Shown here piece by piece: positions 3,433 through 30,985 of a stretch of 31,278 nucleotides of DNA. The translations under genes and the position numbers were made by a program. Each line of letters opens with the position of its first letter. Position 1 is the stretch's first letter. Source of the DNA: a methanogenic archaeon (GTDB lineage: Archaea; Thermoplasmatota; Thermoplasmata; Methanomassiliicoccales; Methanomethylophilaceae); NCBI GenBank assembly GCA_902787415.1, contig CADAGG010000001.1:1-31278 (forward strand). The letters are read 5' to 3'. Under the pieces are notes generated by a model. The model was given only the letters and a program-made list of their open reading frames with translations, did not search any database and was not told the origin of the DNA.

Positions 3433-3446
3433 AGCAGGTGGTCCAG

Positions 3447-4184: not shown

Positions 4185-4189
4185 GGAAG

Positions 4190-6537: not shown

Positions 6538-6551
6538 ACACGTGATAACCC

Positions 6552-11278: not shown

Positions 11279-12520
11279 ATGGGCAGCTATTCCTATATGG
11301 CATTGGGCGAGGAGATAGACAGGGACGCCTACGTCGTGTGCAAATACCGTGTGACCACGGACCTCCCCATGGAGAAGGCGGCGGAGGCCATCGCCGCGGA
11401 GCAGTCTACCGGTACCTGGACGGGTATCTCGACCCTCAACGACGAGGTCTTCAGGAACTACGCCGCCAAGGTCACCGCCATCGACGGCGACATGGTGACC
11501 ATAGCCTTCCCCGAGGCGGATTTCAGCATCAAGGTGGGCGCGGTCCCCCAGATCCTCTCGGTCATCTCCGGCAACCTCTACGGCCTCAGCGCGCTTAAGG
11601 GCGTCAGGCTGGAGGACGTGGAGTTCCCCAAGGGCATTCTCAAACAGTACAAGGGACCCAAGTTCGGAGACGCCGGACTCAGGGAGATCCTGCATCGCCC
11701 CGAGAAACCCCTGGTGGGAACCATCGTGAAGCCCAAGATCGGGCTCTCCCCCAAGGACACCGCTAAGTACATCTACGAGGCCGGAAGCGGAGGGCTCACC
11801 AACGGCAAGGACGACGAGACCCTGGTGGACCAGGCGTTCTGCCCCATCGAGGACCGTACCAAGGCCGTCGCCGAGGCCCTCGACAGGCTGAGGGAGGAGG
11901 GCCACTACATGGTCCACGCCATCAACATCAGCACCAACGGACAGGACGTCAGGGAGCTGGCGGAGGATGCCCAGAAATGGGGCGCCTCGCAGCTCATGAT
12001 CGACGTCCTCACCTGCGGATACGGAGCCATCCAGGCAGTCGCCGAGGACCCCAAGATCAAGGTCCCGATCCACGTCCACAGGACCATGCACGCGGCCATG
12101 ACCAAGGACCCGACCAACGGAATCTCCATGAGGGTCATCGCCAAGCTCGTCCGCATGTGCGGAGGAGACGCCCTCCACATCGGAACCCTCGGAGTGGGCA
12201 AGATGGAGGGAGCCATCACCGAAGGGAAGCAGAACCAGCTCGCCTGCCAGTCGGACGACGTCCCCTACAAGAAGGTCATGCCCGTATGCTCGGGCGGAAT
12301 GTACCCCGGCATCGTCCCGGCGGTCATCAAGGCGGCCGGAACCAACAACCTGCAGATCCAGGCGGGAGGCGGCGTGGCCGGCCACCCGGAGGGTGTGAGA
12401 GCGGGTGCGATGGCCATGTGCCAGGCAGTCGATTCCGCATTCGAGGGAGTGGACATCGAGAAGTACGCCGAGACCCATCACGAGCTCAAGCTCGCACTCG
12501 ACAGGTGGGGTACCAAATGA
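11279..12520 (+). CDS. rbcL: ribulose-1,5-bisphosphate carboxylase/oxygenase, archaeal form III
   Basis: The 413-residue protein keeps almost all RuBisCO active-site residues: Glu41, Thr46-Trp47 (STGTWT), Asn99, Lys151 and Lys153 in TIVKPKIGL, carbamylation Lys177 with Asp179-Glu180, His267-Arg268 and His271 (HVHRTMH), His300, loop-6 Lys308 (GVGKMEG), Ser338 and the GGGVAGHP phosphate site (363-370). That rules out a form IV RuBisCO-like protein. The segment just before the carbamylated lysine reads GGLTNGKDDE where most enzymes have GG-(L/V)-D-x-x-KDDE, so the conserved Asp is Thr. It adds CO2 to ribulose 1,5-bisphosphate to give two 3-phosphoglycerate. It lies between its two pathway partners and overlaps the next gene by ATGA, so it serves AMP breakdown rather than a Calvin cycle. 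Confidence 0.95.
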   Translation: MGSYSYMALGEEIDRDAYVVCKYRVTTDLPMEKAAEAIAAEQSTGTWTGISTLNDEVFRNYAAKVTAIDGDMVTIAFPEADFSIKVGAVPQILSVISGNLYGLSALKGVRLEDVEFPKGILKQYKGPKFGDAGLREILHRPEKPLVGTIVKPKIGLSPKDTAKYIYEAGSGGLTNGKDDETLVDQAFCPIEDRTKAVAEALDRLREEGHYMVHAINISTNGQDVRELAEDAQKWGASQLMIDVLTCGYGAIQAVAEDPKIKVPIHVHRTMHAAMTKDPTNGISMRVIAKLVRMCGGDALHIGTLGVGKMEGAITEGKQNQLACQSDDVPYKKVMPVCSGGMYPGIVPAVIKAAGTNNLQIQAGGGVAGHPEGVRAGAMAMCQAVDSAFEGVDIEKYAETHHELKLALDRWGTK

Positions 12521-14031
12521 GATTCACCTGCAAGCGGATGGACGCCTTCTCCGCCTCACCCATATGCATCTTCGACCCTGCCGACTGCATCGAACTCGGC
12601 GTCAAGGACAACGAGCGTGTCCGCCTCGTGGCCGAGCGCGGGGAGATCACCGTCATCGCCCAGAGCTCGGAGCATTTCGTCGAGAGGGGCATCGTCCTCC
12701 TCCCCGACAAGGTAGTCAAGAGGCTGGGCGTCAAGGACGGCGACCCCGTCGACGCCTACTTCTCTCCCGCACCCGAGAGCGTCAGGGCCATCCGCAAGAA
12801 GATGGACAACGAGAAGCTGGAGGGTGCCGAGATCGACGCCATAGTCAAGGACATCTACGCCGGCCGTCTGTCCCACATCGAGATCTCATCCTGGCTCACG
12901 TCCCTGTACATCAACGGCATGGACCTCGACGAGATCGCGGAGTTCACCAAGGCCATGGTGAACACCGGCGACCGCGTCCCCTTCGACAAGGGACCCATCT
13001 TCGACTTCCACAGCATCGGAGGAGTGCCCGGCAACAAGATCACGCCCATCGTGGTGTCCATCGTGGCCGCGGCTGGACTCCTCATCCCCAAGACCTCGTC
13101 CCGTGCCATCAGCAGCGCCTGCGGTACCTCCGATTTCGTGGAGACCTTCTGCGACATCAACGTCTCCGCCGACCGTTTGAAGGAGATCGGGGAGAGCGTG
13201 GGAGGCGCCTTCGTCTGGGGAGGATCCATGAACCTGGCTCCCGTGGATGACATCGTCATCAGGATCGAGCACCCCCTGGGCATCAACCCCCGCCCCCAGA
13301 TGCTGGCCTCCATCCTCAGCAAGAAGCTCGCCATCAACGCCAACTATCTGCTGGTGGACATCCCCACTGGCGCCGGCACCAAGGTCCCCACCATCGACGT
13401 GGCCCGCAGCTACGCCCGCGACTTCATGGACCTGGGAGAGAAGATCGGCATGCACATCGAGTGCGCCATCACCTACGCCGACCAGCCCGTCGGAAGCGCC
13501 ATCGGCCCCAATCTCGAGGCCAGGGAGTGCATCCGCATCCTCGAGGGAGAGCAGCACCCCGCCAGCGTCATCGAGAAGGCCTGCGAGTGCGCGGGAATCC
13601 TCCTGGAGATGGGCGGATTCCAGAACGGGGTGGAGAAGGCCCATGAGATCCTCAAGTCCGGCAAGGCCCACAAGAAGTTCATGGAGATCGTCGTGGCGCA
13701 GGGCGGAAGGGCCGACCTGAAGTCCTCCGACCTCGAGCCCGGGAAGTACTCCGCGGACATCCTGTCCACCAAATCTGGATACGTGCACAGCATCAAGAAC
13801 AAGGATCTGGTGTCCATCGCCAAGGCCTGCGGAGCCCCCACCGACAAGGGTGCCGGAATGCTCCTCCTCAAGAAGAAGGGCCAGAGGGTCGAGGTGGGCG
13901 ACGTCCTGTTCACCCTCTACGCCGACAACGAGGCCAAGCTCCAGCGCGCCAAGGACATGGCCGAGAGGTACAGCCCCGTCGTGATCGAGGGGATGCTCAT
14001 CAAGCGCGTCGCCGCACCGCAGGTCCGCTGA
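12517..14031 (+). CDS. deoA: AMP phosphorylase
   Basis: The 504-residue product is the length of archaeal AMP phosphorylase. About 85 N-terminal residues form the extra domain absent from bacterial thymidine phosphorylase. The core shows DFHSIGGVPGNK (163-174), the phosphate-binding segment KTSSRAISSACGTSDF (192-207), and a C-terminal GYVHSI..K domain. AMP-type residues (KTSSRAI rather than KHGNR) set it apart from pyrimidine phosphorylases. It splits AMP (and CMP or UMP) with phosphate to base plus ribose 1,5-bisphosphate, the first step of the pathway completed by the two genes upstream. The start overlaps the RuBisCO stop (ATGA at 12517-12520). A strong terminator hairpin follows. The gene symbol is the one usually given to this archaeal family. 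Confidence 0.94.
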   Translation: MRFTCKRMDAFSASPICIFDPADCIELGVKDNERVRLVAERGEITVIAQSSEHFVERGIVLLPDKVVKRLGVKDGDPVDAYFSPAPESVRAIRKKMDNEKLEGAEIDAIVKDIYAGRLSHIEISSWLTSLYINGMDLDEIAEFTKAMVNTGDRVPFDKGPIFDFHSIGGVPGNKITPIVVSIVAAAGLLIPKTSSRAISSACGTSDFVETFCDINVSADRLKEIGESVGGAFVWGGSMNLAPVDDIVIRIEHPLGINPRPQMLASILSKKLAINANYLLVDIPTGAGTKVPTIDVARSYARDFMDLGEKIGMHIECAITYADQPVGSAIGPNLEARECIRILEGEQHPASVIEKACECAGILLEMGGFQNGVEKAHEILKSGKAHKKFMEIVVAQGGRADLKSSDLEPGKYSADILSTKSGYVHSIKNKDLVSIAKACGAPTDKGAGMLLLKKKGQRVEVGDVLFTLYADNEAKLQRAKDMAERYSPVVIEGMLIKRVAAPQVR

Positions 14032-16710: not shown

Positions 16711-17490
16711 ATGACAGTCCCAGACATCGTCTCCAAACAGGTATATTCCACCTACGAGCACAAGCTCGACAAGGCCGTCCGCGCGGGTCACATCCCGCAG
16801 CACATAGGCATCATCATGGACGGCAACAGGCGCTACGCCAAGGAGTTCCTGGACTCGGACATCGACGAGGGCCACAGGCTCGGGGAGAAGAAGATCGAGA
16901 GCGTAATGGACTGGTGCCTCGACCTCGGCGTCAAGTACGTGACCCTTTACGCCTTCTCGTCCGAGAACTTCAAGAGGGACCGCGAGGAGGTCGATTTCCT
17001 CATGGACCTCGCCGAATCCTCCTTCCTGGAGATGGCGGACAACCCCAAGATCCACAAGCACCGCGTGGCCATCCGCGCCATCGGTAAGATCGAGGCCCTG
17101 CCGGAGAACGTCCGCAAGGCCATCGACTACGCCTACGAGAAGACCAAGGACTACGACCAGTTCACGATCAGCATCTGCCTCGCCTACGGCGGCCGCCAGG
17201 AGATCGTGGAGGCCGTCAAGGAGATCGCCGCCAAGATCGAGGCGGGGGACATGGCCGTGGAAGAAATCACCGAGAAGGTGATCTCCTCGCACCTCTACAC
17301 CGGCGACATGCCCGATCCCGACCTCATCCTGCGTACCTCCGGGGAGATAAGGGTGTCCAACTTCCTGCTCTGGCAGCTCGCTTATTCCGAGCTCTATTTC
17401 ACCGACATCTACTGGCCGGGATTCAGGCGCATCGACTTGCTCCGTGCCATCCGTTCGTACCAGCAGCGCAAGAGGCGCTACGGGGAGTGA
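16711..17490 (+). CDS. uppS: polyprenyl diphosphate synthase, cis-prenyltransferase (UppS family)
   Basis: The 259-residue protein is a clear cis-prenyltransferase: HIGIIMDGNRRYA with catalytic Asp37, LYAFSSENFKR (79-89), ISICLAYGGRQEIV, and the C-terminal DPDLILRTSGE..SNFLLWQ..YSE that binds the pyrophosphate of isopentenyl diphosphate. It builds long-chain cis-polyprenyl diphosphate, in archaea usually starting from geranylgeranyl diphosphate, for the lipid carrier (dolichol-type) of glycosylation. The ATG at 16711 follows a GAGG by 6 nt and lies 8 bp after the previous stop. The chain length of the product cannot be read from the sequence. The enzyme sits at the membrane surface in known cases. 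Confidence 0.94.
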   Translation: MTVPDIVSKQVYSTYEHKLDKAVRAGHIPQHIGIIMDGNRRYAKEFLDSDIDEGHRLGEKKIESVMDWCLDLGVKYVTLYAFSSENFKRDREEVDFLMDLAESSFLEMADNPKIHKHRVAIRAIGKIEALPENVRKAIDYAYEKTKDYDQFTISICLAYGGRQEIVEAVKEIAAKIEAGDMAVEEITEKVISSHLYTGDMPDPDLILRTSGEIRVSNFLLWQLAYSELYFTDIYWPGFRRIDLLRAIRSYQQRKRRYGE

Positions 17491-17509
17491 GACCGCGGCC
17501 CGCTACGAT

Positions 17510-19225
17510 ATGGTCTTCCTCCACGCCCCCAGCGTGTATGACTTCCGCAAGAAGCCCATATTCTACGGTCCCGTGAGCGACGTCATCCCGTCGTCCCCCG
17601 TTTTCGAGATGTACCCCATCGGGTTCATGACGATCTCGGCACAGCTCATAGCGGCCGGTTACAGGACCCGTATCGTCAACATCGCGGGCCAGATGCTGGC
17701 CGACCAGAAGTTCGACGCCGAGAAGAAGATCAAGGGCATCGACGCCGACGTGTACGGCATCGACCTCCATTGGATGCCCCACGCCCACGGCGCCATCGAA
17801 CTGGCGAAGATCGTCAAGAAGTACCATCCGGACGCCAAGGTGGAGTTCGGAGGACTCACCTCCTCGTATTTCTACGACGAGCTCATCCGCAGGCCGGAGA
17901 TCGATCTCGTCATGCGCGGGGACACCACCGAGGTGCCCACCGTGAAGCTCCTCGACGCGCTCTCCAAGGGCGGAGACCTGTCGGAGGTCCCCAACCTCGT
18001 CTGGAAGGACGCCGAAGGCAGGATACACGAGAACGGGGTCACCCATGTCCTGGAGGACCTCGACAGCGTCATCTTCGACTACGGCGTCATGATCAAGAAC
18101 GTCATCAGGACCATGGACGTCAAAGGGTCCCTCCCCTGGAAGAGCTGGGCCGAGACCCCGCTCACCTCGGTCTTCACCGTCCGCGGATGCTCCGTCAACT
18201 GCGCCGAGTGCGGAGGCTCCCGCGATGCCAACGGCAGGGTCGTCTGCAGGCACAAACCGGCCTTCAGGAGCCCCGCCAAACTGGCCGAGGACGTGGCCAA
18301 CATCAACAGCTACATGAAGGCCCCCATCTTCATCGTGGGCGACCTCAGACAGGCCGGGATGAAGTACGCGGACGAGTTCCTCAATGCCGTGAAAGAGCTA
18401 GACCCAGACAATCATTTCGTCATCGAACTGTTCAACGGCGCCAACGCCGAGTACTTCAAGAAATGCGACCGCGCTTTCGGAGGCGGATGGAGCATCGAGT
18501 TCTCCCCCGACTCCTATGACGAGGCCGTGCGCATGGCCCTCGGCAAGGGTTACACCAACGAGGCCATCGAGCGCACCCTCCCCGCAGCCTTCGAGAACGG
18601 CTGCAGCAGGTTCGACCTGTTCTTCATGACCGGTCTCCCCCAGCAGACCCGCGAGTCCGCCATGGAGACCGCCCGGGGCGCCAAGAGGCTGTGGGACTGC
18701 GTCAGGAAGGACGACGACCTGTTCATCTACGACTCGCCCTTCGCGCCCTTCGTCGATCCCGGCAGCCGCGCCTTCGAGGACCCCGAGAAATGGGGATACA
18801 AGCTCCGCGCGCGCACTCTGGAGGACCACAGGAAACTGCTCGACAGCCCTTCGTGGAAGCACGTCCTCTCCTACGAGACCGTGTGGATGAACAGGGACGA
18901 GATCGCCGAGACCTCGTACGATGCCGCCATCGCCCTGACCGATGCCCAGCTCGAGAGCGGACGCTTGACCGAGGAAGGGGCGAGAATCAGGAACGAGCGT
19001 ACCGAGACCGCCCGCAGGATCATGCATACCATCGACGAGGCGCTGACCCTCGACAAGGAGGAGTGCGACAGGCGCCTGTGGGCGATAAAGGAGGAGGGCG
19101 TCAGGATGATGGATTCCACCATCACCGACAAGAACGACCTCGACTGGAAGACCGGATCCATCTGGGCCAATGCCCCCAGGGTTGCGGTCGGACTGCTCAA
19201 GAGCTTCGGCCGCCGCAGTCGCTGA
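17510..19225 (+). CDS. B12-binding-domain radical SAM protein (Ta0216-like family)
   Basis: The 571-residue protein has an N-terminal ~200-residue cobalamin-binding-like domain (LHAPSVYDFRKKP at the start, GIDLHWMPHAHG near 83-94, VEFGGLTSSYF near 111-121). The radical SAM site is VRGCSVNCAEC, with Cys227, Cys231 and Cys234 binding a [4Fe-4S] cluster. The layout fits the B12/radical SAM family named after Thermoplasma Ta0216. Its reaction is unknown; relatives of this architecture often methylate or rearrange unactivated carbons. The start at 17510 has no good ribosome site, but the family N-terminus begins here and the upstream in-frame ATG at 17444 lies inside uppS. It is the last gene of the folD operon, 19 bp after uppS. 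Confidence 0.85.
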   Translation: MVFLHAPSVYDFRKKPIFYGPVSDVIPSSPVFEMYPIGFMTISAQLIAAGYRTRIVNIAGQMLADQKFDAEKKIKGIDADVYGIDLHWMPHAHGAIELAKIVKKYHPDAKVEFGGLTSSYFYDELIRRPEIDLVMRGDTTEVPTVKLLDALSKGGDLSEVPNLVWKDAEGRIHENGVTHVLEDLDSVIFDYGVMIKNVIRTMDVKGSLPWKSWAETPLTSVFTVRGCSVNCAECGGSRDANGRVVCRHKPAFRSPAKLAEDVANINSYMKAPIFIVGDLRQAGMKYADEFLNAVKELDPDNHFVIELFNGANAEYFKKCDRAFGGGWSIEFSPDSYDEAVRMALGKGYTNEAIERTLPAAFENGCSRFDLFFMTGLPQQTRESAMETARGAKRLWDCVRKDDDLFIYDSPFAPFVDPGSRAFEDPEKWGYKLRARTLEDHRKLLDSPSWKHVLSYETVWMNRDEIAETSYDAAIALTDAQLESGRLTEEGARIRNERTETARRIMHTIDEALTLDKEECDRRLWAIKEEGVRMMDSTITDKNDLDWKTGSIWANAPRVAVGLLKSFGRRSR

Positions 19226-20213: not shown

Positions 20214-20576
20214 ATGTCACTAATCGCAAGCTATGTGCCCTTCTTATTCGTGGGTATCTTATCGATGAGCTTTGCGCCTTTGGCATGGTTTGTTTCCAGG
20301 TTCCTCAGACCTGAGCAATCATCAAAGTGGACAGAGGAGACATACGAGTGTGGTTCGGTTCCTATCGGCGATGCTCGTGTCCAGTTCAGGTTCCAATACT
20401 ACGCATTCGCACTGATTTTCGTGGTATTCGATTTGGTCGTGACATTCCTTATGATCTGGGCTGTTGCTTTCTCCGGACTTTCCGACGCTGCAACCGTATG
20501 GATGCTTCTGTTCCTTGCCATCATGCTTCTGGGCGTAACGTACGCACTGAAAAAGGAGGAAGAAATATGGATATGA
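20214..20576 (+). CDS. fpoA: F420H2 dehydrogenase-like complex subunit FpoA (NuoA homologue)
   Basis: The 120-residue protein has three hydrophobic helices (about 4-26, 60-85 and 92-110) and the loop EETYECGSVPIGDARVQFRFQYY, whose conserved Cys-Gly lies near the quinone/methanophenazine channel in complex I relatives. NuoA-type subunits link the membrane arm to the peripheral arm. It is the first gene of the operon, starting at an ATG with two candidate TATA boxes upstream. Its stop overlaps the fpoB start region by a few bases. Confidence 0.94.
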   Translation: MSLIASYVPFLFVGILSMSFAPLAWFVSRFLRPEQSSKWTEETYECGSVPIGDARVQFRFQYYAFALIFVVFDLVVTFLMIWAVAFSGLSDAATVWMLLFLAIMLLGVTYALKKEEEIWI

Positions 20577-21142
20577 GCCTCTACCCTCATGCTGTTGCCA
20601 TGAGCGCTGACGAGTTTATGTCGTGGTCCACCGCGATCATAAACGACCTCATCAGCTCCGGTACCAGGAGGACGATAGACAAGCTCACGGGACCTATCTG
20701 GTCCTGGGCAATGAAGAACTCCATGCACCCCCTTCACTGGGGTCTGGCATGTTGTGCCCTGGAGATGGCACAGGCATCCGCGCCTCGTTTCGACGCAGAG
20801 CGTTACGGAATGATCTACAGGTCCTCTCCCAGGCAGACCGATATCCTTCTGGTCAACGGATGGATCTCCAAGAAGATCCGTAACGACATCAGGAGGCTTT
20901 GGGAGGAGATGCCCGCTCCTAAGTGGGCCGTTGCCATGGGCGAGTGCGCCATCTCCGGCGGACCCTGGTACGATGCATACAACTGTATCCAGGGACTCGA
21001 CCAGATTCTTCCTGTCGACCTCTACATTCCCGGCTGCCCTGCAAGGCCTGACGCCATGATCGATGGTTTCATGCTCCTGCAGAAGAAGATTGACGAGTAC
21101 TTCAGAAGAGGAGTCATCCTCAAGGACAAACAGGGGCTTTGA
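20567..21142 (+). CDS. fpoB: Fpo-like complex subunit FpoB (NuoB homologue, N2 cluster)
   Basis: The 191-residue subunit carries the four ligands of the terminal [4Fe-4S] cluster N2: the Cys62-Cys63 pair in GLACCALEM, Cys127 in MGECAISGG and Cys157 in YIPGCPARP. N2 passes electrons to the membrane carrier, methanophenazine or a quinone-like substitute, at the junction with the membrane arm. The start at 20567 is favoured because GGAGG lies 7 nt upstream; the ATG at 20573 overlaps the fpoA stop and is a possible alternative. The order fpoA-B-C-D is that of Methanosarcina fpo and bacterial nuo. Confidence 0.95.
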   Translation: MDMSLYPHAVAMSADEFMSWSTAIINDLISSGTRRTIDKLTGPIWSWAMKNSMHPLHWGLACCALEMAQASAPRFDAERYGMIYRSSPRQTDILLVNGWISKKIRNDIRRLWEEMPAPKWAVAMGECAISGGPWYDAYNCIQGLDQILPVDLYIPGCPARPDAMIDGFMLLQKKIDEYFRRGVILKDKQGL

Positions 21143-21143
21143 T

Positions 21144-21638
21144 ATGGACACCACTATCCGTGAATATCAGGACTCCTGGGAGGCCGAGATCAAATCCAAG
21201 CTGGAGGACAAGTTCTCCGGCAAGATCGAGGTCACCAAGACCGAGACCCGCAGGGTCTACGCCAAAGTGCTCGACAAGGCAGACATCAAAGACATCTGCA
21301 AGTTCGTGCAGGACGATCTCAGCTTTGAGCACATCAACTGTCTCTGCGGTGTGGACTACCCCGCCGAGAACAAGATGCAGGTCATCTACGAGATCGACAA
21401 CTACACCTTCTACAGAGGAGTCATCCTCGAGCTCGAAGTGGACGTCCCCTACGACGATCTCCACATCGAGACCGTCTCCGACATCTGGGGCGGCGCCAAC
21501 TGGCACGAGAGGGAGACCTGGGAGCTTTTCGGAATCGTTTTCGATCACCACCCCAGGCTCGAGAGGCTTCTCACTCCTGACACCTACGAGTTCTTCCCCA
21601 TGAGGAAGTCCTACAAACTCAGGGAGGACAAGAGATGA
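21144..21638 (+). CDS. fpoC: Fpo-like complex subunit FpoC (NuoC homologue, 30-kDa type)
   Basis: This 164-residue soluble subunit has the family core HINCLCGVDYP, the mid-domain LELEVDVPYDD, and the signature WGGANWHERETWELFGIVFDH (roughly residues 114-134), which packs against FpoD. It belongs to the peripheral arm and binds no cofactor itself. The ATG at 21144 comes one base after the fpoB stop, with AGGGG about 8 nt upstream; an in-frame ATG at 21063 inside fpoB is rejected. Its stop overlaps the fpoD ATG (ATGA at 21635-21638), so the two are translationally coupled. Confidence 0.93.
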   Translation: MDTTIREYQDSWEAEIKSKLEDKFSGKIEVTKTETRRVYAKVLDKADIKDICKFVQDDLSFEHINCLCGVDYPAENKMQVIYEIDNYTFYRGVILELEVDVPYDDLHIETVSDIWGGANWHERETWELFGIVFDHHPRLERLLTPDTYEFFPMRKSYKLREDKR

Positions 21639-22867
21639 CAGACGAGAAAAAGACTCAGATTCCCGACGCACAGGCCATCGCTGAAGGAGCAGAGGTCACC
21701 AAGGAAATGGTCCAGGAGTACACCTCCCAGAACATGGACATGGACAAGATGTGGATCACCATGGGTCCGCAGCACCCCTTCTCCCACGGTCTCTGGACCC
21801 TTAAGATCCAGGCGGACGGAGAAATCGTGACCGATGCCGACCCCATCGTTGGATACCTCCACAGGGGTTGGGAGAAGGAGGCCGAGAACAGGACGTATCC
21901 CAAGATCATCCCCATGGCCGACCGTCTCTGCTACGCATCTTCCATGATGTACACCCACCTTTACTGCATGACCTGTGAGAAGGCCCTCGGAATCGAGATT
22001 CCCGAGAAGACCAAGTACATCAGGGTCATGGCCGACGAGATCAACCGTCTCCAGTCCCACCTCATGTGGCTCGCAGCGGTAGGTACCGACCTCGGTAACT
22101 TCACCGCCTTCCTCTGGGCCTCCAGGGAGAGGGAGTTCTGGATGGATATGAACGTCAGGCTCTGCGGTGCCAGGATGACCACCAACTACCCCCGTATCGG
22201 AGGAGTAAGGAACGATGTCTTCGACATCGACCTCGACATGAACGACGAGGAGAAATCCAGGTTCATGAGGGACATCGTCAGGTGCTGCGATCACTTCGAC
22301 AAAGCCCTCTGGGATATCATCGCACTTATCGACAACAACTCCACCTTCATCTCCAGGATGGTCGGAACCGGAATCATCACCAGGGAGCAGTGCGCCAACC
22401 TGGGTATCACCGGACCCGCCATGAGGGGAACCGGCGTCGACTTCGATGTCCGCCGCGACGACCCCTACGACGGTTACGACCTGGTGGACTTCGACGTCCC
22501 CGTACTCTCCGCAGGAGACTCCTACGCAAGGTACATGATCAGGGTCGAAGAGATGTTCCAGGCGACCAGGATCATCAGGCAGTGCGTCGACAAGATCAGG
22601 TCCCTCGGAAGGAGCGCCCCCTACAGGCTCAAGGTCCCCAGCAGGATCCCTGCCGGAAAGACCTACTGCCGTATCGAGGACTGCCGCGGAGAGGCCGCCA
22701 TGTACCTCGTATCCGATGGTACCGACCGCCCCTACAGGCTCAAGGTCCGCAGTGCCATCTTTGTGAACGTATCGTCCTCCAGGGACTTGCTCATGGGATG
22801 CAGGATCGCAGATGTTCCTGTCATCATGGCAATGATCGACATGTGTCTCGGAGAGACCGACAGGTGA
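21635..22867 (+). CDS. fpoD: Fpo-like complex subunit FpoD (NuoD homologue, 49-kDa type)
   Basis: The 410-residue subunit has MGPQHPFSHG (43-52) and IVGYLHRGWEK, typical of the 49-kDa subunit, which descends from [NiFe] hydrogenase large subunits and forms the quinone-site wall with FpoB. The middle holds the long helical bundle with RVMADEINRLQSHLMWLA, and the C-terminus the VPVIMAMIDMCLGETDR ending. The hydrogenase metal-binding Cys pairs are absent, as in all complex I relatives. About 38 charged residues precede the core, a slightly long N-terminus. fpoH begins 6 bp downstream. Confidence 0.95.
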   Translation: MTDEKKTQIPDAQAIAEGAEVTKEMVQEYTSQNMDMDKMWITMGPQHPFSHGLWTLKIQADGEIVTDADPIVGYLHRGWEKEAENRTYPKIIPMADRLCYASSMMYTHLYCMTCEKALGIEIPEKTKYIRVMADEINRLQSHLMWLAAVGTDLGNFTAFLWASREREFWMDMNVRLCGARMTTNYPRIGGVRNDVFDIDLDMNDEEKSRFMRDIVRCCDHFDKALWDIIALIDNNSTFISRMVGTGIITREQCANLGITGPAMRGTGVDFDVRRDDPYDGYDLVDFDVPVLSAGDSYARYMIRVEEMFQATRIIRQCVDKIRSLGRSAPYRLKVPSRIPAGKTYCRIEDCRGEAAMYLVSDGTDRPYRLKVRSAIFVNVSSSRDLLMGCRIADVPVIMAMIDMCLGETDR

Positions 22868-22873
22868 TTTGAC

Positions 22874-24124
22874 ATGGCTTACACAAGTATCATTGACTGG
22901 ATCACCGGCGTCTACTCCCAGCACGGATGGGCTGACCCCATTCAGGCCAACCCCTACTATCCGTTCGGAGACGCATACAACCTGCCCTATGACCTCGGAA
23001 TGAAACTGTGGAACATCATCGGCGGTGCCATCGCTTGGCTCCTCGACCTCCTGTTCCCCGGCAACGACGTCTCCACCTGGCTCGTCTGCGACATGACCAA
23101 CAACATCTTCGCCCTCGTACTGTTCATGGTGCTGGTCTTCGCCGTCGTCTTCGTGGCCTGTCTGATCTCCCTATGGGAGGAGCGTAAGGTCCTCGGAAGA
23201 GGTATGGACCGTCGTGGAACCATGATCGGTATGTGGGGATTCCTGCAGTGCGTCGCTGACGGACTGAAGACCTTCATGAAGGACAACGTCTTCTCCAAGA
23301 AGGTCGACGGAATGACCTACTGGTGGACCGTCGCACTCATCATCGGAACCTCTGTTCTGATCGACTGTATGGTCCCCCTGTCCCCCAGGTGGTTCGTCGT
23401 CAACTACGACGCCGGACTGCTGATCATCATGGGTCTCTACGCCCTCGCACCGTTCTTCATCCTCGTATCCGGATGGTCCCAGAACAACAAGTACTCCCTT
23501 ATCGGAGGAATCAGGGCAGCAGAGATGATGATCTCTTACGAGGTCCCCCTGCTGATCATCATCGCAACCGCCGCACTCCTCGCCGGATCCCTCAACATCG
23601 GTGACATCGTGATGGCCCAGACCAAACACTTCTGGTACGTCATCCCCATGTTCGTCGGATTCGTCACCTTCATGATCTGCGCCACCGCAGAGTCTGAGCG
23701 TGCACCTTTCGACCTTGCAGAGGCTGAGTCCGAGCTGGTCGAGGGATGGCAGACCGAGTACGGAGGTATGAAATGGGGTCTTGTCATGCTGGCAGACTAC
23801 CTTAGAGGAGCATGTTCCTGCGGTATCATCGTCCTTCTGTTCTTCGGAGGCTGGAACCTTCCCTTCATGGAGTGGACCTACTTCCTCGGAGACGGAATCG
23901 CGAGCTTCCACCAGAACTTCATGTGGTGGTTCCCCGCACCTGAGCTCACCTTCCTCCTGAAGGCATGGCTGATCTTCTTCGTCATGATCGCCATCAGGCT
24001 CGGAACCGGACGTGTCAGGACCGACTCTATCCTCAACCTCGGATGGAAGGTCTTCATGCCTCTCTCCATCCTCAACTTGGTCATCGTCCTCATCTTCAAG
24101 CTCTTCATTGGAGGTGTCTTCTGA
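22874..24124 (+). CDS. fpoH: Fpo-like complex subunit FpoH (NuoH homologue) with long N-terminus
   Basis: The 416-residue subunit is longer than usual (about 320-350). The family core begins at WEERKVLGR with Glu103-Arg104-Lys105, about 60 residues later than in typical NuoH/FpoH. The extra N-terminal part includes a Tyr/Pro-rich stretch and an amphipathic or membrane helix near 46-62. The core has SGWSQNNKYSLIGGIRAAEMMISYE and ESERAPFDLAEAESELV, the charged loops that line the carrier site and start the proton path. It anchors the peripheral arm to the membrane arm. The stop TGA shares its last base with the fpoI ATG. Confidence 0.93.
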   Translation: MAYTSIIDWITGVYSQHGWADPIQANPYYPFGDAYNLPYDLGMKLWNIIGGAIAWLLDLLFPGNDVSTWLVCDMTNNIFALVLFMVLVFAVVFVACLISLWEERKVLGRGMDRRGTMIGMWGFLQCVADGLKTFMKDNVFSKKVDGMTYWWTVALIIGTSVLIDCMVPLSPRWFVVNYDAGLLIIMGLYALAPFFILVSGWSQNNKYSLIGGIRAAEMMISYEVPLLIIIATAALLAGSLNIGDIVMAQTKHFWYVIPMFVGFVTFMICATAESERAPFDLAEAESELVEGWQTEYGGMKWGLVMLADYLRGACSCGIIVLLFFGGWNLPFMEWTYFLGDGIASFHQNFMWWFPAPELTFLLKAWLIFFVMIAIRLGTGRVRTDSILNLGWKVFMPLSILNLVIVLIFKLFIGGVF

Positions 24125-24873
24125 TGTCTATGGAATATATTGAGAAATACAGGGACGGAAGGCACAAGTGCTGGAAGGACCTGTGGATCGTCAGGCCTAT
24201 CTTCGTCACCCTGAAGCTGATGGCCAAGACCACCGTCCACAGACCCATCACCGTCCTGTACCCCTACGAAGCACTCTGGAACCCCGACAACTACCGTGGC
24301 CGTCCCGGACTCGACTTCAACAAATGTCTCGGATGCGGAATGTGCGCCAAGTACTGTCCCTGCTCCGCAATCATCCTCGTGGACACTCCCGACGATGCGG
24401 GCAAGACCGTCTCCAGGCCGCAGATCAACATGGGAAGGTGCTCCTTCTGCGCATACTGTGCGGAGTACTGCCCCGTGGACGCAATGACCGTCACCCCCAT
24501 CGTGGAGCTCGCCGAGTACACCAGGGCAGACCTCATCTACGGTCCCCGCAGGCTCGCTTACGAGAACACCACCGAGGGAATGAAAGTCAGGAACGAGGTC
24601 ACCCTCTACTCCGACTTCCAGAACGGCAAAGGCGAGATCAGGCAGTCCTTCTTCGGACTGGACCGCCCTGAGCTCGACGAGAAGAAATGTATCAGCTGTA
24701 AGAAGTGCCAGAAGGTCTGTCCTACCGGCGCTATCACTATGGTTGAGCACGGTACCAACGCCAAGGGTAAACCCATCCTGTGGCCCGAGGTCAGTGCAGA
24801 CAAATGCGTATCTTGCGAGAACTGCGTATCCGCATGCCCCAAGAGTGCGCTTCACCTTAAGGAGGTGTGCTGA
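24124..24873 (+). CDS. fpoI: Fpo-like complex subunit FpoI (NuoI homologue) with four [4Fe-4S] motifs
   Basis: The first ~125 residues are a normal NuoI/FpoI: two CxxCxxCxxxC motifs at Cys68/71/74/78 and Cys106/109/112/116. The 249-residue protein then continues, after a linker of about 70 residues, into a second ferredoxin module with two more complete motifs at Cys189/192/195/199 and Cys228/231/234/238. Typical FpoI ends after the first module. The extra pair of clusters would lengthen the electron wire at the outer end of the peripheral arm, where FpoF or other input modules dock. As no fpoF is present, it may receive electrons from reduced ferredoxin or a heterodisulfide-reductase partner; that is inference. 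It overlaps fpoH and fpoJ by one base each. Confidence 0.95.
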   Translation: MSMEYIEKYRDGRHKCWKDLWIVRPIFVTLKLMAKTTVHRPITVLYPYEALWNPDNYRGRPGLDFNKCLGCGMCAKYCPCSAIILVDTPDDAGKTVSRPQINMGRCSFCAYCAEYCPVDAMTVTPIVELAEYTRADLIYGPRRLAYENTTEGMKVRNEVTLYSDFQNGKGEIRQSFFGLDRPELDEKKCISCKKCQKVCPTGAITMVEHGTNAKGKPILWPEVSADKCVSCENCVSACPKSALHLKEVC

Positions 24874-25199
24874 TGGCAATTCTTGAAGACATTTGGAATG
24901 GATTCTGCGACTTCGTGAACTACCTTTGGTGCAACGGAGATCTTGTGGCATTCGTCATCCTTGCTGCAATCAGCATCACCGCCGCCATCTACGTTATCTA
25001 CGACAGGCTGCCCGTCCACAGTGCATTCTATCTTGCACTCGTGTTCGTCACCGTCGCCGTGACCTACTTCTTCCTTGAAGCAGAGTTCATAGGCGTGATA
25101 CAGCTGCTCGTCTACGTCGGTGCCATCACCATCCTGTTCGCGTTCAGCATTATGCTTACCCGCAGGTACATCCAGGAGGAAGATTTCGATGATGAGTAA
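24873..25199 (+). CDS. fpoJ1: Fpo-like complex subunit FpoJ, N-terminal part (NuoJ homologue)
   Basis: The 108-residue protein has three hydrophobic helices and the NuoJ signature FLEAEFIGVIQLLVYVGAI, whose Glu and the pi-bulge-like GVIQLLVYVGAI segment belong to the TM3 switch region. It ends shortly after TM3, where full-length NuoJ continues with two more helices encoded by the next gene. Such a split fpoJ is known in methanogens. The ATG shares one base with the fpoI stop (TGATG) and is preceded by a near-perfect AAGGAGGT. It ends in TAA, one of only three TAA stops in the window. Confidence 0.9.
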   Translation: MAILEDIWNGFCDFVNYLWCNGDLVAFVILAAISITAAIYVIYDRLPVHSAFYLALVFVTVAVTYFFLEAEFIGVIQLLVYVGAITILFAFSIMLTRRYIQEEDFDDE

Positions 25200-25500
25200 A
25201 AGAGCCGGAGCCGGTATCGGTGTAGCAGTCGTTCTGCTCGTAGCTCTCGGAGCTTGCATCTATGCAACTTCCTGGGACGGAATGGACGAGCCCACCCCCA
25301 TCCCCTACAACGGAGAGGCGGGAATGAACGCACCGTCGAACACCAACGACGACGGAACCCTGAAAGAGAACTCGCTCAACTATGGCGTATTCGAGGCCTA
25401 CGGACCTCTCCTCATCGTCCTGGCACTGCTCATGTTCGGTGCCATGGTCGGAGGAATATGTGTCGCGAGAGAGGAGGTTGAGAACGATGATACCGATTGA
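25189..25500 (+). CDS. fpoJ2: Fpo-like complex subunit FpoJ, C-terminal part
   Basis: The 103-residue protein has two hydrophobic helices (about 7-25 and 69-90) separated by a polar Pro/Asn-rich loop of about 45 residues, and an acidic tail. The second helix, YGPLLIVLALLMFGAMVGGI, matches the last helix of NuoJ/FpoJ. With FpoJ1 it completes the five-helix subunit. Two adjacent ATG codons at 25189 and 25192 can start it; GGAGG lies 9 nt before the first. It overlaps fpoJ1 by 11 bp and fpoK by 14 bp, so production of all three is closely coupled. Confidence 0.85.
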   Translation: MMSKRAGAGIGVAVVLLVALGACIYATSWDGMDEPTPIPYNGEAGMNAPSNTNDDGTLKENSLNYGVFEAYGPLLIVLALLMFGAMVGGICVAREEVENDDTD

Positions 25501-25789
25501 GTATTACCTCACCTTCGCAGCGATCCTGTTCGCCATCGGAGCATACGGTGTCATGGCAAAGCCCAACACCCTGATTGTCCTGATGTGCACTGAGCTCATG
25601 CTCAATGCAGCCAACATCAACTTTGTGGCGTTCTCCGCATTCACCGGAGACGTCTACGGACAGGTTATGGTAATCATGACCATCTCCGTAGCAGCAGCCG
25701 AGGTAGCGGTCGGTATCGCTATCCTGCTCAACGCATACAAGGTCAGAAAGTCCACGAACGCCGACGATCTCACGTCTATGAGGTGGTAA
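25487..25789 (+). CDS. fpoK: Fpo-like complex subunit FpoK (NuoK homologue)
   Basis: The 100-residue subunit has three transmembrane helices and keeps both buried glutamates of NuoK at their usual positions: Glu36 in CTELMLNAANIN and Glu72 in AAAEVAVGIAI. These belong to the proton path next to FpoH and FpoN. Its length equals the E. coli protein. The ATG at 25487 lies within the end of fpoJ2, with GAGGAGG about 8 nt upstream. It ends in TAA just before fpoL. Confidence 0.95.
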   Translation: MIPIEYYLTFAAILFAIGAYGVMAKPNTLIVLMCTELMLNAANINFVAFSAFTGDVYGQVMVIMTISVAAAEVAVGIAILLNAYKVRKSTNADDLTSMRW

Positions 25790-25791
25790 GC

Positions 25792-27939
25792 ATGGCTACT
25801 ATGATTATGCAGTATTCCTGGCTCATCCCCCTCATCCCCGTGCTCTGTTTCACCATCGTCGGATTCCTCGGAAGCAAGATGGGAAAGAAGACCCACTACG
25901 GAGGATACCTCGTTATCCTCGGTACCGCGGCCTCGTTCATCCTGTCGCTTCTGGTAACCCTCGAGTACACCGGATTCATCGGAGCCGGTAACTACTACCC
26001 TGACGCATACGAGGAGCACATCGACTGGTTCACCGTCGGTAACTTCACCCTTACCTTCGGATTCTACATCGATATCCTCGCCTGCCTGATGATGCTCTTC
26101 GCATCCTTCATCTCCACGATGATCTTCACCTACTCCCTTGGCTACATGGGAGGATACGAGGATGAATACCAGCTCAAGAGGCAGAGGAGGTACTTCGCAG
26201 AAGTCGCCCTCTTCCTTACCGGAATGCTGGGACTCGCAGTCTCCAGCACCCTGCTCGAGATGTTCATCTTCTGGGAGATCATGGGTCTCTGCTCCTACCT
26301 CCTCATCGGATTCTGGAGCTTCAACCACCCCGAGGGAGACGACAAGGCCGACAACGCCGCATCCGCAGCAAAGAAGGCATTCCTCGTCACCAGGATGGGA
26401 GATGTATGTCTCATGGGAGGACTGTTCATCCTGTTCTTCGCAATGAACGGTCACCTCGAGTACACCTACGTATTCAACGTCGACAACCTCGCAGCAGCCT
26501 ACTCCGCGAACCCCGGTCTCATGACCCTTGCCTCGCTCCTCGTCTTCGGTGGAGTCATCGGCAAGTCCGCCCAGTTCCCCCTGCTCGACTGGCTTCCCGA
26601 CGCAATGGCCGGACCTACCACTGTGTCCGCACTTATCCACGCCGCAACCATGGTCAAGGCGGGAGTGTACCTTGTCGCAAGGGCCTACCCCCTGTTCCTC
26701 CTCGATCCCAACGTGATGCTCGTCGTCGCTGTCATCGGAGGAGTCACCGCGTTCTTCGCGGCCACCATGGCTATGAACAACATGAACATCAAGAAAGTCC
26801 TGGCTTACTCGACCCTGTCCCAGCTCGGTTACATGTTCCTGTCTCTCGGAGCAGGAGGATACCTCATGGCATCCGCCATCTCCGTCGAGGGAGGAGGCAT
26901 CGTCATCGAGAACATCGCAGAGTTCACGGCCGGTGCTCTCGGTTACTCCGCCGGATGTCTCCACATGGTGAACCACGCCTTCTTCAAGGCACTGCTCTTC
27001 CTGTGTTCCGGATCCGTCATCCACGCCAACGGTACCGAGGACATGCGCCTCATGGGAGGACTCCACAAGAAGATGCCCAAGACCTCCATCACCATGCTGA
27101 TCGGATGTCTGTCCATCGCAGGATTCCCCTTCTTCGCCGGATTCTTCTCCAAGGATCTCGTCCTTGATGTCGTGTTCGAGCTCTTCGAGGGCAACATCAA
27201 CAACACCGAACTCATCTTCGCACTCCTCTGGTTCCTCGGAATCGTGACTGCGTTCATGACCGCATTCTACATGTTCAGGCTGTGGTTCATGACCTTCATG
27301 GGCGAGTACAGAGGACACCACTGCCACGGTGAGTCCCCTGCTTCCATGACTGTTCCCCTCATGATCCTCTCCATCTTCGCTTTCGCCGCAGGATTCATCG
27401 TAGTCTTCGGCTGGGAGCACGTCTTCACCTTCTCTCAGGTCGGTGCAGTCGCCAACGGAGACGCGATCAGCTACTTCCTCGTCGGTGGAGCCGGCAAGGT
27501 GTTCGAGATCTCTCTCGACCCCGTCCTCGAGCTCTTCAAGACCTGGAAGACCTACGTGACCATCGTACTCGTACTGGTGGCCATCATCCTCGCATACCTT
27601 ATGTACGCAAAGAAGACGATCAACCCCGGAAGGTTCAACAAGAACGGCAAGTCCGCTCTCTACAGGACCATCTCCAACAGGTACTACTTCCCCGAGCTGT
27701 ACAACCAGCTCTCCTGGAAGCTCGGTTACGATGTTGCAAGGGGCGTTGAGTTCTTCGACAGGCAGGTCATCGACGGAACCGTCAACGGACTCTCCAGTGC
27801 CGTTGTCGGCGGAGGTGACCTCATGAGCAAGGCCCAGGACGGTAACCTGCACACCTACGCATCCGTCGTCGTCGGCGGAATCGTGTTCCTGTTCGTCATC
27901 GTTCTGGTTCTCTTCGGTCAGTTCGGAGGTCTGTTCTGA
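25792..27939 (+). CDS. fpoL: Fpo-like complex subunit FpoL (NuoL homologue, antiporter-like)
   Basis: The 715-residue protein has about 16 transmembrane helices and the key charged residues of the Mrp/NuoL antiporter family: Glu162 in FWEIMGLCSYLLIGFW and the Lys in ALIHAATMVKAGVYL, with KKVLAYSTLSQLGYM following. After the 14-helix core come a soluble segment and a final helix, consistent with the lateral helix HL that runs along the membrane arm in NuoL. It is the distal ion-pumping subunit. The start is ATG 25792, 2 bp after the fpoK stop, with GAGGTGG upstream; a GTG three codons earlier is possible. The stop TGA shares a base with the fpoM ATG. Confidence 0.95.
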   Translation: MATMIMQYSWLIPLIPVLCFTIVGFLGSKMGKKTHYGGYLVILGTAASFILSLLVTLEYTGFIGAGNYYPDAYEEHIDWFTVGNFTLTFGFYIDILACLMMLFASFISTMIFTYSLGYMGGYEDEYQLKRQRRYFAEVALFLTGMLGLAVSSTLLEMFIFWEIMGLCSYLLIGFWSFNHPEGDDKADNAASAAKKAFLVTRMGDVCLMGGLFILFFAMNGHLEYTYVFNVDNLAAAYSANPGLMTLASLLVFGGVIGKSAQFPLLDWLPDAMAGPTTVSALIHAATMVKAGVYLVARAYPLFLLDPNVMLVVAVIGGVTAFFAATMAMNNMNIKKVLAYSTLSQLGYMFLSLGAGGYLMASAISVEGGGIVIENIAEFTAGALGYSAGCLHMVNHAFFKALLFLCSGSVIHANGTEDMRLMGGLHKKMPKTSITMLIGCLSIAGFPFFAGFFSKDLVLDVVFELFEGNINNTELIFALLWFLGIVTAFMTAFYMFRLWFMTFMGEYRGHHCHGESPASMTVPLMILSIFAFAAGFIVVFGWEHVFTFSQVGAVANGDAISYFLVGGAGKVFEISLDPVLELFKTWKTYVTIVLVLVAIILAYLMYAKKTINPGRFNKNGKSALYRTISNRYYFPELYNQLSWKLGYDVARGVEFFDRQVIDGTVNGLSSAVVGGGDLMSKAQDGNLHTYASVVVGGIVFLFVIVLVLFGQFGGLF

Positions 27940-29462
27940 TGGAATTCGTATTACCCGCACTTATCCTGGTGCCCCTGATCGGAGCCATCATTACTCTCTT
28001 CATGGGCGGATCGAGGCAGAAGTACGCTTGCACAGTGGCACTCGTGTTCACCGTAGCGACCCTCCTGCTCTCCCTTATACTGATGATCACCAACGTCAAC
28101 GACCTCTCCAAGTTCGATGTGAACTATGGCTGGATCAACGCCGCCGGACTCAAGATGTCCATCATCCTGACCGTCGACGGACTCAGCCTCCTGATGGTCT
28201 TCCTCACCGCAATGCTCGAGGTGCTGGTCATCGCCTTCTCCTACAAGGAGAGCGACAGGCCCAACTACTTCTACGCACTGCTCCTGGCCATCGAGGTCGG
28301 ACTGATGGGAGTTTACCTCTCTGCAGACTACTTCCTCTTCTACATCATGTGGGAGGTCAGCCTGATTCCTATGTACTTCCTTATCTCTTGGTACGGAGGT
28401 CCCAGGAGGCACTACTCTGCCATCAAGTTCTTCATCTACACCCACGTAGCATCGCTGGTCATGCTGATCGGAATCTTCAGCATGGTCTTCGAGTCTGCAT
28501 ACCTCGCCGGCAGCGGAACCATCGACTTCAGCTTCGCATTCGTGAAGCAGTGGATGCCCGGAGCCGACTCTGTGTTCCAGATCCTCGTGTTCGCAATGCT
28601 GTTCTTCGGATTCGCTGTCAAGATGCCCGCAGTTCCCTTCCATACCTGGCTGCCTGACGCACACGTCGAGGCGCCTACCGCTGGTTCCGTCCTCCTGGCC
28701 GGAGTCATGCTTAAGATGGGTTCCTACGGTATCATCAGGGTCTGCATCGAGGCTCTCCCCGGTGCGCTCGGCAGCTGGCAGTACATCGTCATCGCCATCG
28801 GAATCATCTCCATGATCTACGGTGCGTACGCCTGTATCGCCCAGAGGGACCTCAAGAAGATGGTCGCATACTCCTCCATCAGCCACATGGGACTCGTCAT
28901 GGTCGCCATGGGTGCTGCCATGGGCGGTGTCGCCTCCGGTGACGCCAACCTCGTCAAGATGGGTATCGAGTTCGCCATCTTCCAGATGTTCGCTCACGGA
29001 CTCATCTCCGGAATGCTGTTCCTTGTCTGCGGTACCGCAGGCCACAACTTCGGAACCAGGGAGATCCCCCTCATGGGTGGAATCGCCTCCAAGGTGCCCG
29101 TCTACGCAGCATTCATGATGTTCTGTTTCATGGCATCCCTCGGACTCCCCGGACTCATCGGATTCTGGGGAGAGTTCGGAATCATCTGCGCGTTCTATGA
29201 CTGGACCCTCGCAAAGGACATGATCTACCTCCTGGTGTTCTGTCTGCTCTCCCTGCTCCTGACCGCAGGTTACTACCTGTGGGCAATGCAGAGGACCCTG
29301 TTCGGCAGGATCACCACCAAGATCGACGTCGCGCACATGCACGATGTCGACAGGGTCGAGGCAGTCGTCCTCGGAGTCCTGGCCTTTGCCATCGCTATCT
29401 ACGGATTCTGGCCTGATCTCGCGATCAGCTACATCTCCGGATACGCAGGAGGTCTGATCTGA
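27939..29462 (+). CDS. fpoM: Fpo-like complex subunit FpoM (NuoM homologue, antiporter-like)
   Basis: The 507-residue, 14-helix subunit keeps the NuoM features: MWEVSLIPMYFLI with the buried Glu, VKMPAVPFHTWLPDAHVEAPTAGSVLLAG with its Lys, and KKMVAYSSISHMGLVM. NuoM-type subunits form the middle ion channel of the membrane arm. Length and motif order are normal. It overlaps both neighbours by one base (TGATG), so fpoL, fpoM and fpoN are translated in series. Confidence 0.95.
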   Translation: MEFVLPALILVPLIGAIITLFMGGSRQKYACTVALVFTVATLLLSLILMITNVNDLSKFDVNYGWINAAGLKMSIILTVDGLSLLMVFLTAMLEVLVIAFSYKESDRPNYFYALLLAIEVGLMGVYLSADYFLFYIMWEVSLIPMYFLISWYGGPRRHYSAIKFFIYTHVASLVMLIGIFSMVFESAYLAGSGTIDFSFAFVKQWMPGADSVFQILVFAMLFFGFAVKMPAVPFHTWLPDAHVEAPTAGSVLLAGVMLKMGSYGIIRVCIEALPGALGSWQYIVIAIGIISMIYGAYACIAQRDLKKMVAYSSISHMGLVMVAMGAAMGGVASGDANLVKMGIEFAIFQMFAHGLISGMLFLVCGTAGHNFGTREIPLMGGIASKVPVYAAFMMFCFMASLGLPGLIGFWGEFGIICAFYDWTLAKDMIYLLVFCLLSLLLTAGYYLWAMQRTLFGRITTKIDVAHMHDVDRVEAVVLGVLAFAIAIYGFWPDLAISYISGYAGGLI

Positions 29463-30985
29463 TGGACGCATCCTTCATTACCAATATCTTCCAGTACTAC
29501 ACAGCGGTCGTACCTATGCTCATCATGATCGTAGGTGCGCTCATCTCGCCTGCAGTGTACATGGCAACCAAGAAGACCTCTGTATCCTCCGCAGTCTCCT
29601 GCGTGATACTCCTCATCTCCATGATCCTGAACCTGATCATGCTCACCGCCGACAACGGACTCGGCAGCTACAACATGCTCGGTCAGCCCGGAGATGCCTT
29701 CTACGGTCTGTTCGTGTACAACAAGTTCACCGGACTCATGATCCTGCTCTTCCAGATCGTCGCGCTCATCACCGTGTTCGTATCCGGATCCAGCAGGGAG
29801 GTCACCAAGCTGCACTTCGGAGCATACAACGCCCTCCTCCTCATCGCCACCACCGGCATGATGTTCGTGGCCTGCGCCACCGACCTCATCGGTATCTTCG
29901 TCGGTGTCGAGGCAGTCAGTATCAGCTCCTACGCACTCGTGACCCTGAAGAGGAAGGACCCCCGCGCCGCAGAGGCAGGAGTCAAGTACGTCATCATCGG
30001 TGGTCTGTCCACCGCACTGACGATCTACGGTATCTCCATGATCTACGGCTCCCTCGGAACCCTCGAGCTCGGAGCACTCGGCTCCGCCCTCGCAACCAAG
30101 GGATACTCCTGGGCCTTCGTCATCGGAATCATCACCATGGTCGCAGGATACGGATTCAAGATTGCGGCAGCACCCTTCCACATGTGGGCACCCGATGTCT
30201 ACGAGGGAGCGGCCACCCCTGTCTCCACCTTCCTCGCCACCGGTTCCAAGAAGATGGGTCTCGTCGTGTTCTTCAAGATCTTCCTCGTGATGTTCGTCGC
30301 CGCACAGGCCACCGTCTCCATCGAGCCTATGCAGTACCTGTTCGCGATCATCGCAGCGATTTCGATGACCATCGGAAACGTTGTCGCCATCGCCCAGAAC
30401 AACATCAAGAGGATGCTCGCATACTCCTCCATCGCCCAGGCTGGTTACATCCTGATCGCGATGGCAGTCATGAGCCAGTACGCCGTGACCGGAGGTCTCT
30501 TCCACATGTTCACCCACGTGTTCATGAAGGGAGGAGCCTTCCTCGTCGTCGGTGCGCTCATCTGCGCCGGAGTCGGCGAGAAGATCACCGACTACAACGG
30601 ACTCGCAAGGAGGGCACCCTTCCTGGCCTTCGCCATGATGGTCTTCCTGTTCTCCCTTGCCGGAGTGCCTCCTCTCGCAGGATTCACCTCCAAGTTCGTC
30701 CTCTTCTCCGGAGCGATCTTCGGTACCGAGGGCGCGGTGTCCGGATGGGTCTGGCTGGCATTCGTTGCCATCCTCAACTCCGCCATCTCCCTGTACTACT
30801 ACGTCAGGGTCATCAAGGCAATGTACATCGAGAGGCCCAACAAGGGCTGCGATGAGAAGATCAAGGTCCCCAAGACCTTCCTCGTCGCCATCGTCGTCTG
30901 CGTCGTCCTCGTCGTTGTGCTCGGAGTCTACCCCGACCTCATCCTCAACCCCTGCGCTGACGCAGCCGCTGCGCTGTTCGCCTGA
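29462..30985 (+). CDS. fpoN: Fpo-like complex subunit FpoN (NuoN homologue, antiporter-like)
   Basis: The 507-residue, 14-helix subunit shows the NuoN pattern: the GIFVGVEAVSISSYAL segment with the buried Glu, KIAAAPFHMWAPDVYEGAATPVSTFLA, and KRMLAYSSIAQAGYILIA. It is the pump nearest the FpoJ/K/H unit. It is the last gene of the operon; fpoO, which follows fpoN in Methanosarcina, is not present, and a terminator begins 24 bp after the stop. Confidence 0.95.
   Translation: MDASFITNIFQYYTAVVPMLIMIVGALISPAVYMATKKTSVSSAVSCVILLISMILNLIMLTADNGLGSYNMLGQPGDAFYGLFVYNKFTGLMILLFQIVALITVFVSGSSREVTKLHFGAYNALLLIATTGMMFVACATDLIGIFVGVEAVSISSYALVTLKRKDPRAAEAGVKYVIIGGLSTALTIYGISMIYGSLGTLELGALGSALATKGYSWAFVIGIITMVAGYGFKIAAAPFHMWAPDVYEGAATPVSTFLATGSKKMGLVVFFKIFLVMFVAAQATVSIEPMQYLFAIIAAISMTIGNVVAIAQNNIKRMLAYSSIAQAGYILIAMAVMSQYAVTGGLFHMFTHVFMKGGAFLVVGALICAGVGEKITDYNGLARRAPFLAFAMMVFLFSLAGVPPLAGFTSKFVLFSGAIFGTEGAVSGWVWLAFVAILNSAISLYYYVRVIKAMYIERPNKGCDEKIKVPKTFLVAIVVCVVLVVVLGVYPDLILNPCADAAAALFA

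Follow-up and report, generated by a model that had tools for sequence, protein, structure and literature searches.

The question of how electrons enter the headless complex I of archaea bears, for Methanomassiliicoccales, on energy conservation in hydrogen-dependent methyl reduction. The locus examined here, in a stretch of 31,278 nucleotides from a genome of this order (the window), raises it through a single subunit. Its operon is of the fpoABCDHIJJKLMN type (20214-30985), and the initial annotation had singled out the product of fpoI for carrying four cysteine motifs, twice the usual number, proposing the added part as a docking site for ferredoxin or for a heterodisulfide reductase subunit in a complex without FpoF. 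The features are as follows, with subunits named from the gene order in Table 6 of PMC4153887, from homology and from known sequence features.

20214-20576, + strand: fpoA
20567-21142, + strand: fpoB
21144-21638, + strand: fpoC
21635-22867, + strand: fpoD
22874-24124, + strand: fpoH
24124..24873, + strand: fpoI, a four-motif NuoI/FpoI of 249 aa, ATG at 24124, stop codon included
24124..24591, + strand: NuoI core, about residues 1-156
24325..24357, + strand: motif 1, residues 68-78, N6 cluster motif
24439..24471, + strand: motif 2, residues 106-116, N6 cluster motif
24592..24660, + strand: new linker between the NuoI match and the extra module, about residues 157-179, borders approximate
24661..24870, + strand: extra dicluster module, about residues 180-249, borders approximate
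24688..24720, + strand: motif 3, residues 189-199
24805..24837, + strand: motif 4, residues 228-238
24873-25199 and 25192-25500, + strand: fpoJ, split over two ORFs
25487-25789, + strand: fpoK
25792-27939, + strand: fpoL
27939-29462, + strand: fpoM
29462-30985, + strand: fpoN

FpoI indeed contains four perfect CxxCxxCxxxC motifs, starting at residues 68, 106, 189 and 228, which together account for 16 of its 19 cysteines. The gene lies between those for subunits H and J, and its product combines the N6a/N6b motif pair with the NuoI fold; it scores above the cut-off of the NuoI family (TIGR01971, 150.4 versus 113.05 bits) and below that of the NCBIfam FpoI model (NF040612, 110.4 versus 180 bits). 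FpoI differs from NuoI, NdhI and TYKY in possessing a second, NuoI-like dicluster module at its C-terminus. Neither fpoF and fpoO nor a NuoEFG input module is present in the operon between 20214 and 30985. The complex is the Fpo-like 11-subunit complex of Methanomassiliicoccales (PMC4153887), with which it shares its gene set and an operon without FpoF and FpoO; the passages considered in that account do not mention the FpoI extension, and no earlier description was found in the literature searched, where long result lists were covered in part. Since fpoB and fpoC are separate and an F gene is absent, the window operon is not of the Archaeoglobus Fqo type.

PF04432 had no match in the window's own genome (82.6% complete), none in the near relative G037 (99% complete, FpoI 97% identical) and none in 14 of the 16 genomes of the order tested, so that the added two-motif module sits, as initially claimed, on the subunit through which electrons enter, in a complex that lacks a detectable FpoF. 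The other two genomes possess FrhB-type genes in gene clusters other than fpo. In L109 (family f3, 6215-7348, - strand) and L111 (family f2, 6173-7315, + strand), an FrhB-type protein adjoins a long ORF with an HdrA-like appearance on visual inspection, away from fpo. PF01512 was likewise without a match in 15 of the 16 genomes, and its sole match, in G001, falls in a gene cluster whose layout resembles that of a hydrogenase.

The four-motif form is the normal FpoI of the order and not special to the window. A search of 147 genomes matched 131, 124 of them with a single match reaching both halves; five matches were partial or split (G033, G061, G088, G091 and G132), two genomes (G095 and G127) matched only through another ferredoxin-like gene, and 16 had no match. 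In all 73 loci read, from six families and with near-duplicates included, the four motifs are in register, which makes the pattern more than chance. Carriers among the named records are, for example, L005 ('Candidatus Methanomethylophilus sp. 1R26') and L009 (an uncultured Methanomassiliicoccus).

Among 62 aligned four-motif relatives with 31-97% identity to the window protein, the 16 motif cysteines are invariant, while C16, C80 and C249 vary. The stretch from C116 to C189 spans 72 residues, in agreement with the linker of about 70 residues initially described; most of it is ordinary NuoI fold, however, as the structural match to NuoI reaches to about residue 156 and leaves only some 20-25 residues of truly new linker. 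This linker has a pLDDT of about 80 in the model of the whole chain and of 46-49 when modelled without the core; the blocks of the extra module reach 76-88. The kinship of the module with NuoI is evident at the level of both sequence and fold: a NuoI model tops its NCBIfam matches in all four lineages scanned, hhalign aligned it to two-motif NuoI with a probability of 99.7, and each of the top ten Foldseek hits is a subunit I, from either complex I or NDH-1. Duplication of the NuoI module is therefore the best supported route of origin. A fusion with a separate dicluster ferredoxin, that is, a captured donor that now functions as a relay, could draw on the PorD- and FwdF-type models, which score just behind NuoI for the extra module with small margins (in the window 52.4 bits for NuoI versus 42.6 for FwdF). 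We nonetheless consider it improbable, given that NuoI models ranked first in every lineage scanned and that Foldseek returned subunit I throughout.

FwdF and MvhB are polyferredoxins that belong to other enzymes. They share with FpoI the arrangement of several dicluster modules in one chain and are among its top PDB sequence matches. As a whole-chain match to a solved four-cluster protein, the Foldseek superposition with FwdF was unusable (about 200 columns at an rmsd above 22 A). To see whether the basic ferredoxin-docking hairpin had shifted to the extra module, we compared hairpin charges: by lineage means, the hairpin of the extra module exceeds that of the core in basicity in 9 of 14 lineages, falls below it in two and is about equal in three, the window's own family being one of the last.

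The extension is not confined to Methanomassiliicoccales. In a sample of 391 Thermoplasmatota genomes of at least 80% completeness, drawn evenly and including the order, 151 genomes were matched at 1e-15. Four motifs were read in families f13, f23, f20, f26, f7, f18 and f40, and six in the NuoI of family f11, within a complex I operon (L073, 8987-9892, + strand; L074, 8962-9867, + strand); all six are perfect in L074, and one is degenerate in L073. The six motifs of f11 would fit a wire of modular construction. Four- and six-motif subunits lie nearly always within a complex I operon, in some cases cut by contig ends; in L130, only subunits A to I of complex I were recognised, and in L071 only subunit B and a four-motif subunit I, followed by a gene for a TfrB/HdrD-like iron-sulfur protein (8430-9882 and 11834-13096, + strand). 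Two-motif subunits are found in the complex I operons of families f9, f10, f41, f49 and f27. The f27 NuoI in L086 ends in a tail rich in Lys, Pro and Glu.

Two loci have further peculiarities. In the f20 locus L072, the complex I operon encodes a doubled subunit M (3327-6338, - strand) in addition to a four-motif NuoI. A doubled subunit M has also been reported in the Angelarchaeales, which are probably aerobic; their complex I is without E, F and G, and was proposed to use ferredoxin (PMC9038741). That f20 represents this group is a guess on our part. In the f26 genome G286, whose NuoI match spans both modules, a 4.6-kb contig (L115, 1-4579) carries a NuoG above the curated cut-off beside NuoE/F-like ORFs, and could be contamination.

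This range bears directly on the second proposed partner, HdrD. As HdrE is absent and a direct contact between Fpo and HdrD is a published hypothesis (PMC7374477), the module in Methanomassiliicoccales could dock HdrD and form an electron exit or contact site, and the TfrB/HdrD-like gene near the four-motif NuoI of L071, together with a similarly laid-out, unannotated ORF in L073, is in line with this. McrA, however, was detected in all 14 genomes of the order tested and in none of 33 extended genomes tested outside it; the presence of four or six motifs rests on direct reading in 24 of the latter and is deduced from the match span or open frame in nine. Thus, the module did not arise as a dock for a heterodisulfide reductase subunit, contrary to one of the two initial proposals. 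A dock for HdrD alone is disfavoured by these McrA-less carriers and by six of the seven FqoF-bearing genomes described below, and we regard HdrD docking as a poor explanation overall, although the module might have been taken over for this purpose later within the order.

Whether the extension compensates for the missing FpoF can be judged from a wider search. A profile search covered 295 genomes of the phylum (Halobacteriota in GTDB) to which the Methanosaeta genome G477 belongs. It matched 27 of them at 1e-32, and seven matches reach both modules, a lower bound in view of the strict cut-off. All seven loci are complex I-type operons in which a four-motif subunit I (ORFs of 225-291 aa with unrefined starts) is directly followed downstream by a gene that we name FpoF/FqoF-type from its position and score. 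The F genes cover most of the FpoF model with 127-171 bits, below its narrow cut-off of 475; an FrhB-type gene of Methanomassiliicoccales located outside fpo reaches 113 bits against this model. The two F genes checked in Pfam matched FrhB_FdhB_C with 128.5 and 153.7 bits (cut-off 23.3). In six of the loci, a single ORF encodes B and C, and the genes follow the order L-N-A-BC-D-H-I-F as far as the stretches reach; these six are labelled Archaeoglobus-type Fqo on the grounds of this gene order and fusion; in A. fulgidus, B and C are also fused (PMC11237513), and fqoF, AF1833, is the last gene of AF1823-AF1833 (PMC3949148). The six loci resemble the window in their four-motif subunit I, but differ in the downstream FqoF-type gene, the BC fusion and a linker of 82-83 residues, compared to 72 in the window. 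McrA was found in one of the seven genomes, G648. The operon of this McrA-bearing genome includes, besides an FqoF-type gene, one for a fused B-C-D subunit (L192, 2146-4653, + strand).

Some lineages thus combine the extension with an FqoF-type gene, and others have it alone. The initial annotation had linked it to the absence of FpoF and had itself named its occurrence in organisms with a functional FpoF as a refutation; all seven loci answer to this, with F genes identified by sequence and position, and the link finds no support. That the module was gained upon loss of the F420H2-oxidising subunit, in order to replace it, might still be read from the Thermoplasmatota four-motif operons, in none of which an FpoF-type gene was seen among those read, and from the lack of PF04432 in the window's genome. 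Against it stand the seven operons, one of which, L187, is the sister of the Thermoplasmatota group, and the existence of headless complexes with two motifs. As a specific explanation, substitution for FpoF is largely refuted by the seven loci, provided that their F genes serve the complex, and we hold it to be very improbable.

The reverse situation is found in Methanothrix-type Fpo, which is headless, that is, without FpoF (PMC7374477, PMC4153887), and whose FpoI has two motifs. Of 119 genomes in the class to which G477 belongs, 115 were matched, and none of the matches listed extends past residue 192; the G487 match reaching this residue crossed a stop codon, and the others listed end by residue 166. 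By comparison with this class, the cysteine number of the window's FpoI is twice the usual one, as initially stated. Together with the operons of families f9, f10, f41, f49 and f27, the Methanothrix-type operons indicate that the module is not needed for function without FpoF. The Methanothrix-type FpoI of L169, L173, L174, L179 and L181 ends in a long C-terminal tail rich in Ala, Lys and Glu.

The two-motif headless complexes also imply that extra clusters are dispensable for electron entry. It is therefore conceivable that the module, being fused to the subunit that forms the tip of the arm, has a structural or protective role, capping the headless arm near N6a or aiding assembly, with its putative clusters off the electron path. 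However, strict conservation of all eight extra cysteines over 62 rows goes beyond what a cap requires, and the module is present beside FqoF-type genes as well, where the tip would not be bare. We therefore judge a cap unlikely, if less so than the other alternatives.

To place the gain of the module, we computed trees, in a quick and a careful version, from concatenated NuoB-C-D-H sequences of 69 rows, leaving out subunit I. All 47 four- and six-motif rows from Thermoplasmatota form one group, with the Methanomassiliicoccales nested inside, requiring one change of state. Support for the group is modest (76/80) and rises to 100/100 once the long-branched two-motif f27 is included. Two-motif rows fetched as outgroup (L170-L172) grouped with f9, f10, f41 and f49 instead. 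When the seven FqoF-bearing rows are added, three changes of state are needed; L187 becomes the sister lineage of the Thermoplasmatota group with 100/100 support, and the placement of f27 is poorly supported. The L187 linker, at 53 residues, has the same length as that of several Thermoplasmatota, and its extra module fits best to the Thermoplasmatota profile (44.4 versus 37.9 and 37.1 bits). The Fqo-type rows are far off in the tree, so that the extension there was probably gained separately. Most simply, there was one gain in Fqo, one before the split of L187 and Thermoplasmatota, and a loss in f27. The Thermoplasmatota module thus seems to predate the Methanomassiliicoccales. The four-motif FpoI is a real variant of subunit I of complex I, of old standing, and ordinary within the order. 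The extension is special neither to the window genome nor to methanogens or FpoF-less complexes, and a question posed for one order of methanogens has widened to a form of complex I found across a phylum.

Considering these results, we favour, with a probability of about 60%, the interpretation that FpoI is a NuoI with a duplicated C-terminal dicluster module, acting as a general entry relay that prolongs the wire outward rather than as a substitute for FpoF. The two-cluster ferredoxin module of NuoI would have been copied and retained at the C-terminus, where it most likely accommodates an additional pair of [4Fe-4S] clusters, which its motifs would be expected to bind. Electrons would pass from the donor over the two extra clusters to N6a, N6b and N2 in FpoB and on to the acceptor, in this presumed order and with presumably suitable spacing. 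In archaea with FqoF, the module would relay electrons from this subunit; in headless Thermoplasmatota, including Methanomassiliicoccales, it may receive them from reduced ferredoxin, by analogy to cyanobacterial NDH-1, where they arrive at N6a of NdhI. Electron entry is the most likely role of the module, and ferredoxin is suggested as donor here by the published model for M. luminyensis, in whose headless Fpo ferredoxin oxidation has been modelled (PMC7374477, PMC6019823), and by the docking of ferredoxin on NdhI in cyanobacteria, from where electrons take the path Fd-N6a-N6b-N2 (PMC7021789). Cyanobacterial NDH-1 resembles the Methanomassiliicoccales complex in its operon without NADH module and in its ferredoxin donor, modelled in reviews for the latter, but contains a three-cluster chain with N6a and N6b in NdhI, whereas the window subunit has two more motifs; ferredoxin there sits on NdhI, NdhH, NdhV and NdhO (PMC7021789).

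More generally, and tentatively, at a little short of even confidence, archaeal complex I may have lengthened its input arm by copying NuoI modules in place, rather than by adding NuoG-type subunits. This would have produced ladders of two, four and six clusters, with a Thermoplasmatota copy older than the Methanomassiliicoccales and probably a separate gain in Archaeoglobus-type Fqo, and FqoF or ferredoxin would connect as donors at the ladder's end. The conserved two-motif module, with its range mapped, is a defined piece of protein for removal tests, and its distribution warns against interpreting it as a substitute for FpoF or as a docking site for heterodisulfide reductase.

We also considered that an extended subunit I might track the genome-wide absence of an input module. 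Among 50 extended genomes (G168 included), three matched PF04432 and four PF01512, compared to six and 17 among 30 others; the genomes are not independent, and most PF01512 contexts are unannotated. This idea was set aside, since several PF01512 matches are not heads of complex I, such as those in L118, which adjoins a formate dehydrogenase alpha gene, and in the hydrogenase-like cluster of L113. Many of the 30 genomes contain operons that by gene content resemble group 4 hydrogenases and not complex I.

No candidate gene for a donor was recognised among the shared neighbours of the operon, the sole annotated one being a B12-binding/radical SAM gene. In the window, it lies upstream of the fpo operon (17444-19225, + strand), and five Methanomassiliicoccales families as well as f11 have relatives of it in the neighbourhood of the operon. 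Elsewhere in the window, an ORF without Pfam match (1668-2825, + strand) encodes a protein of 385 aa that contains near-identical internal repeats and a stretch rich in Ala, Lys and Glu.
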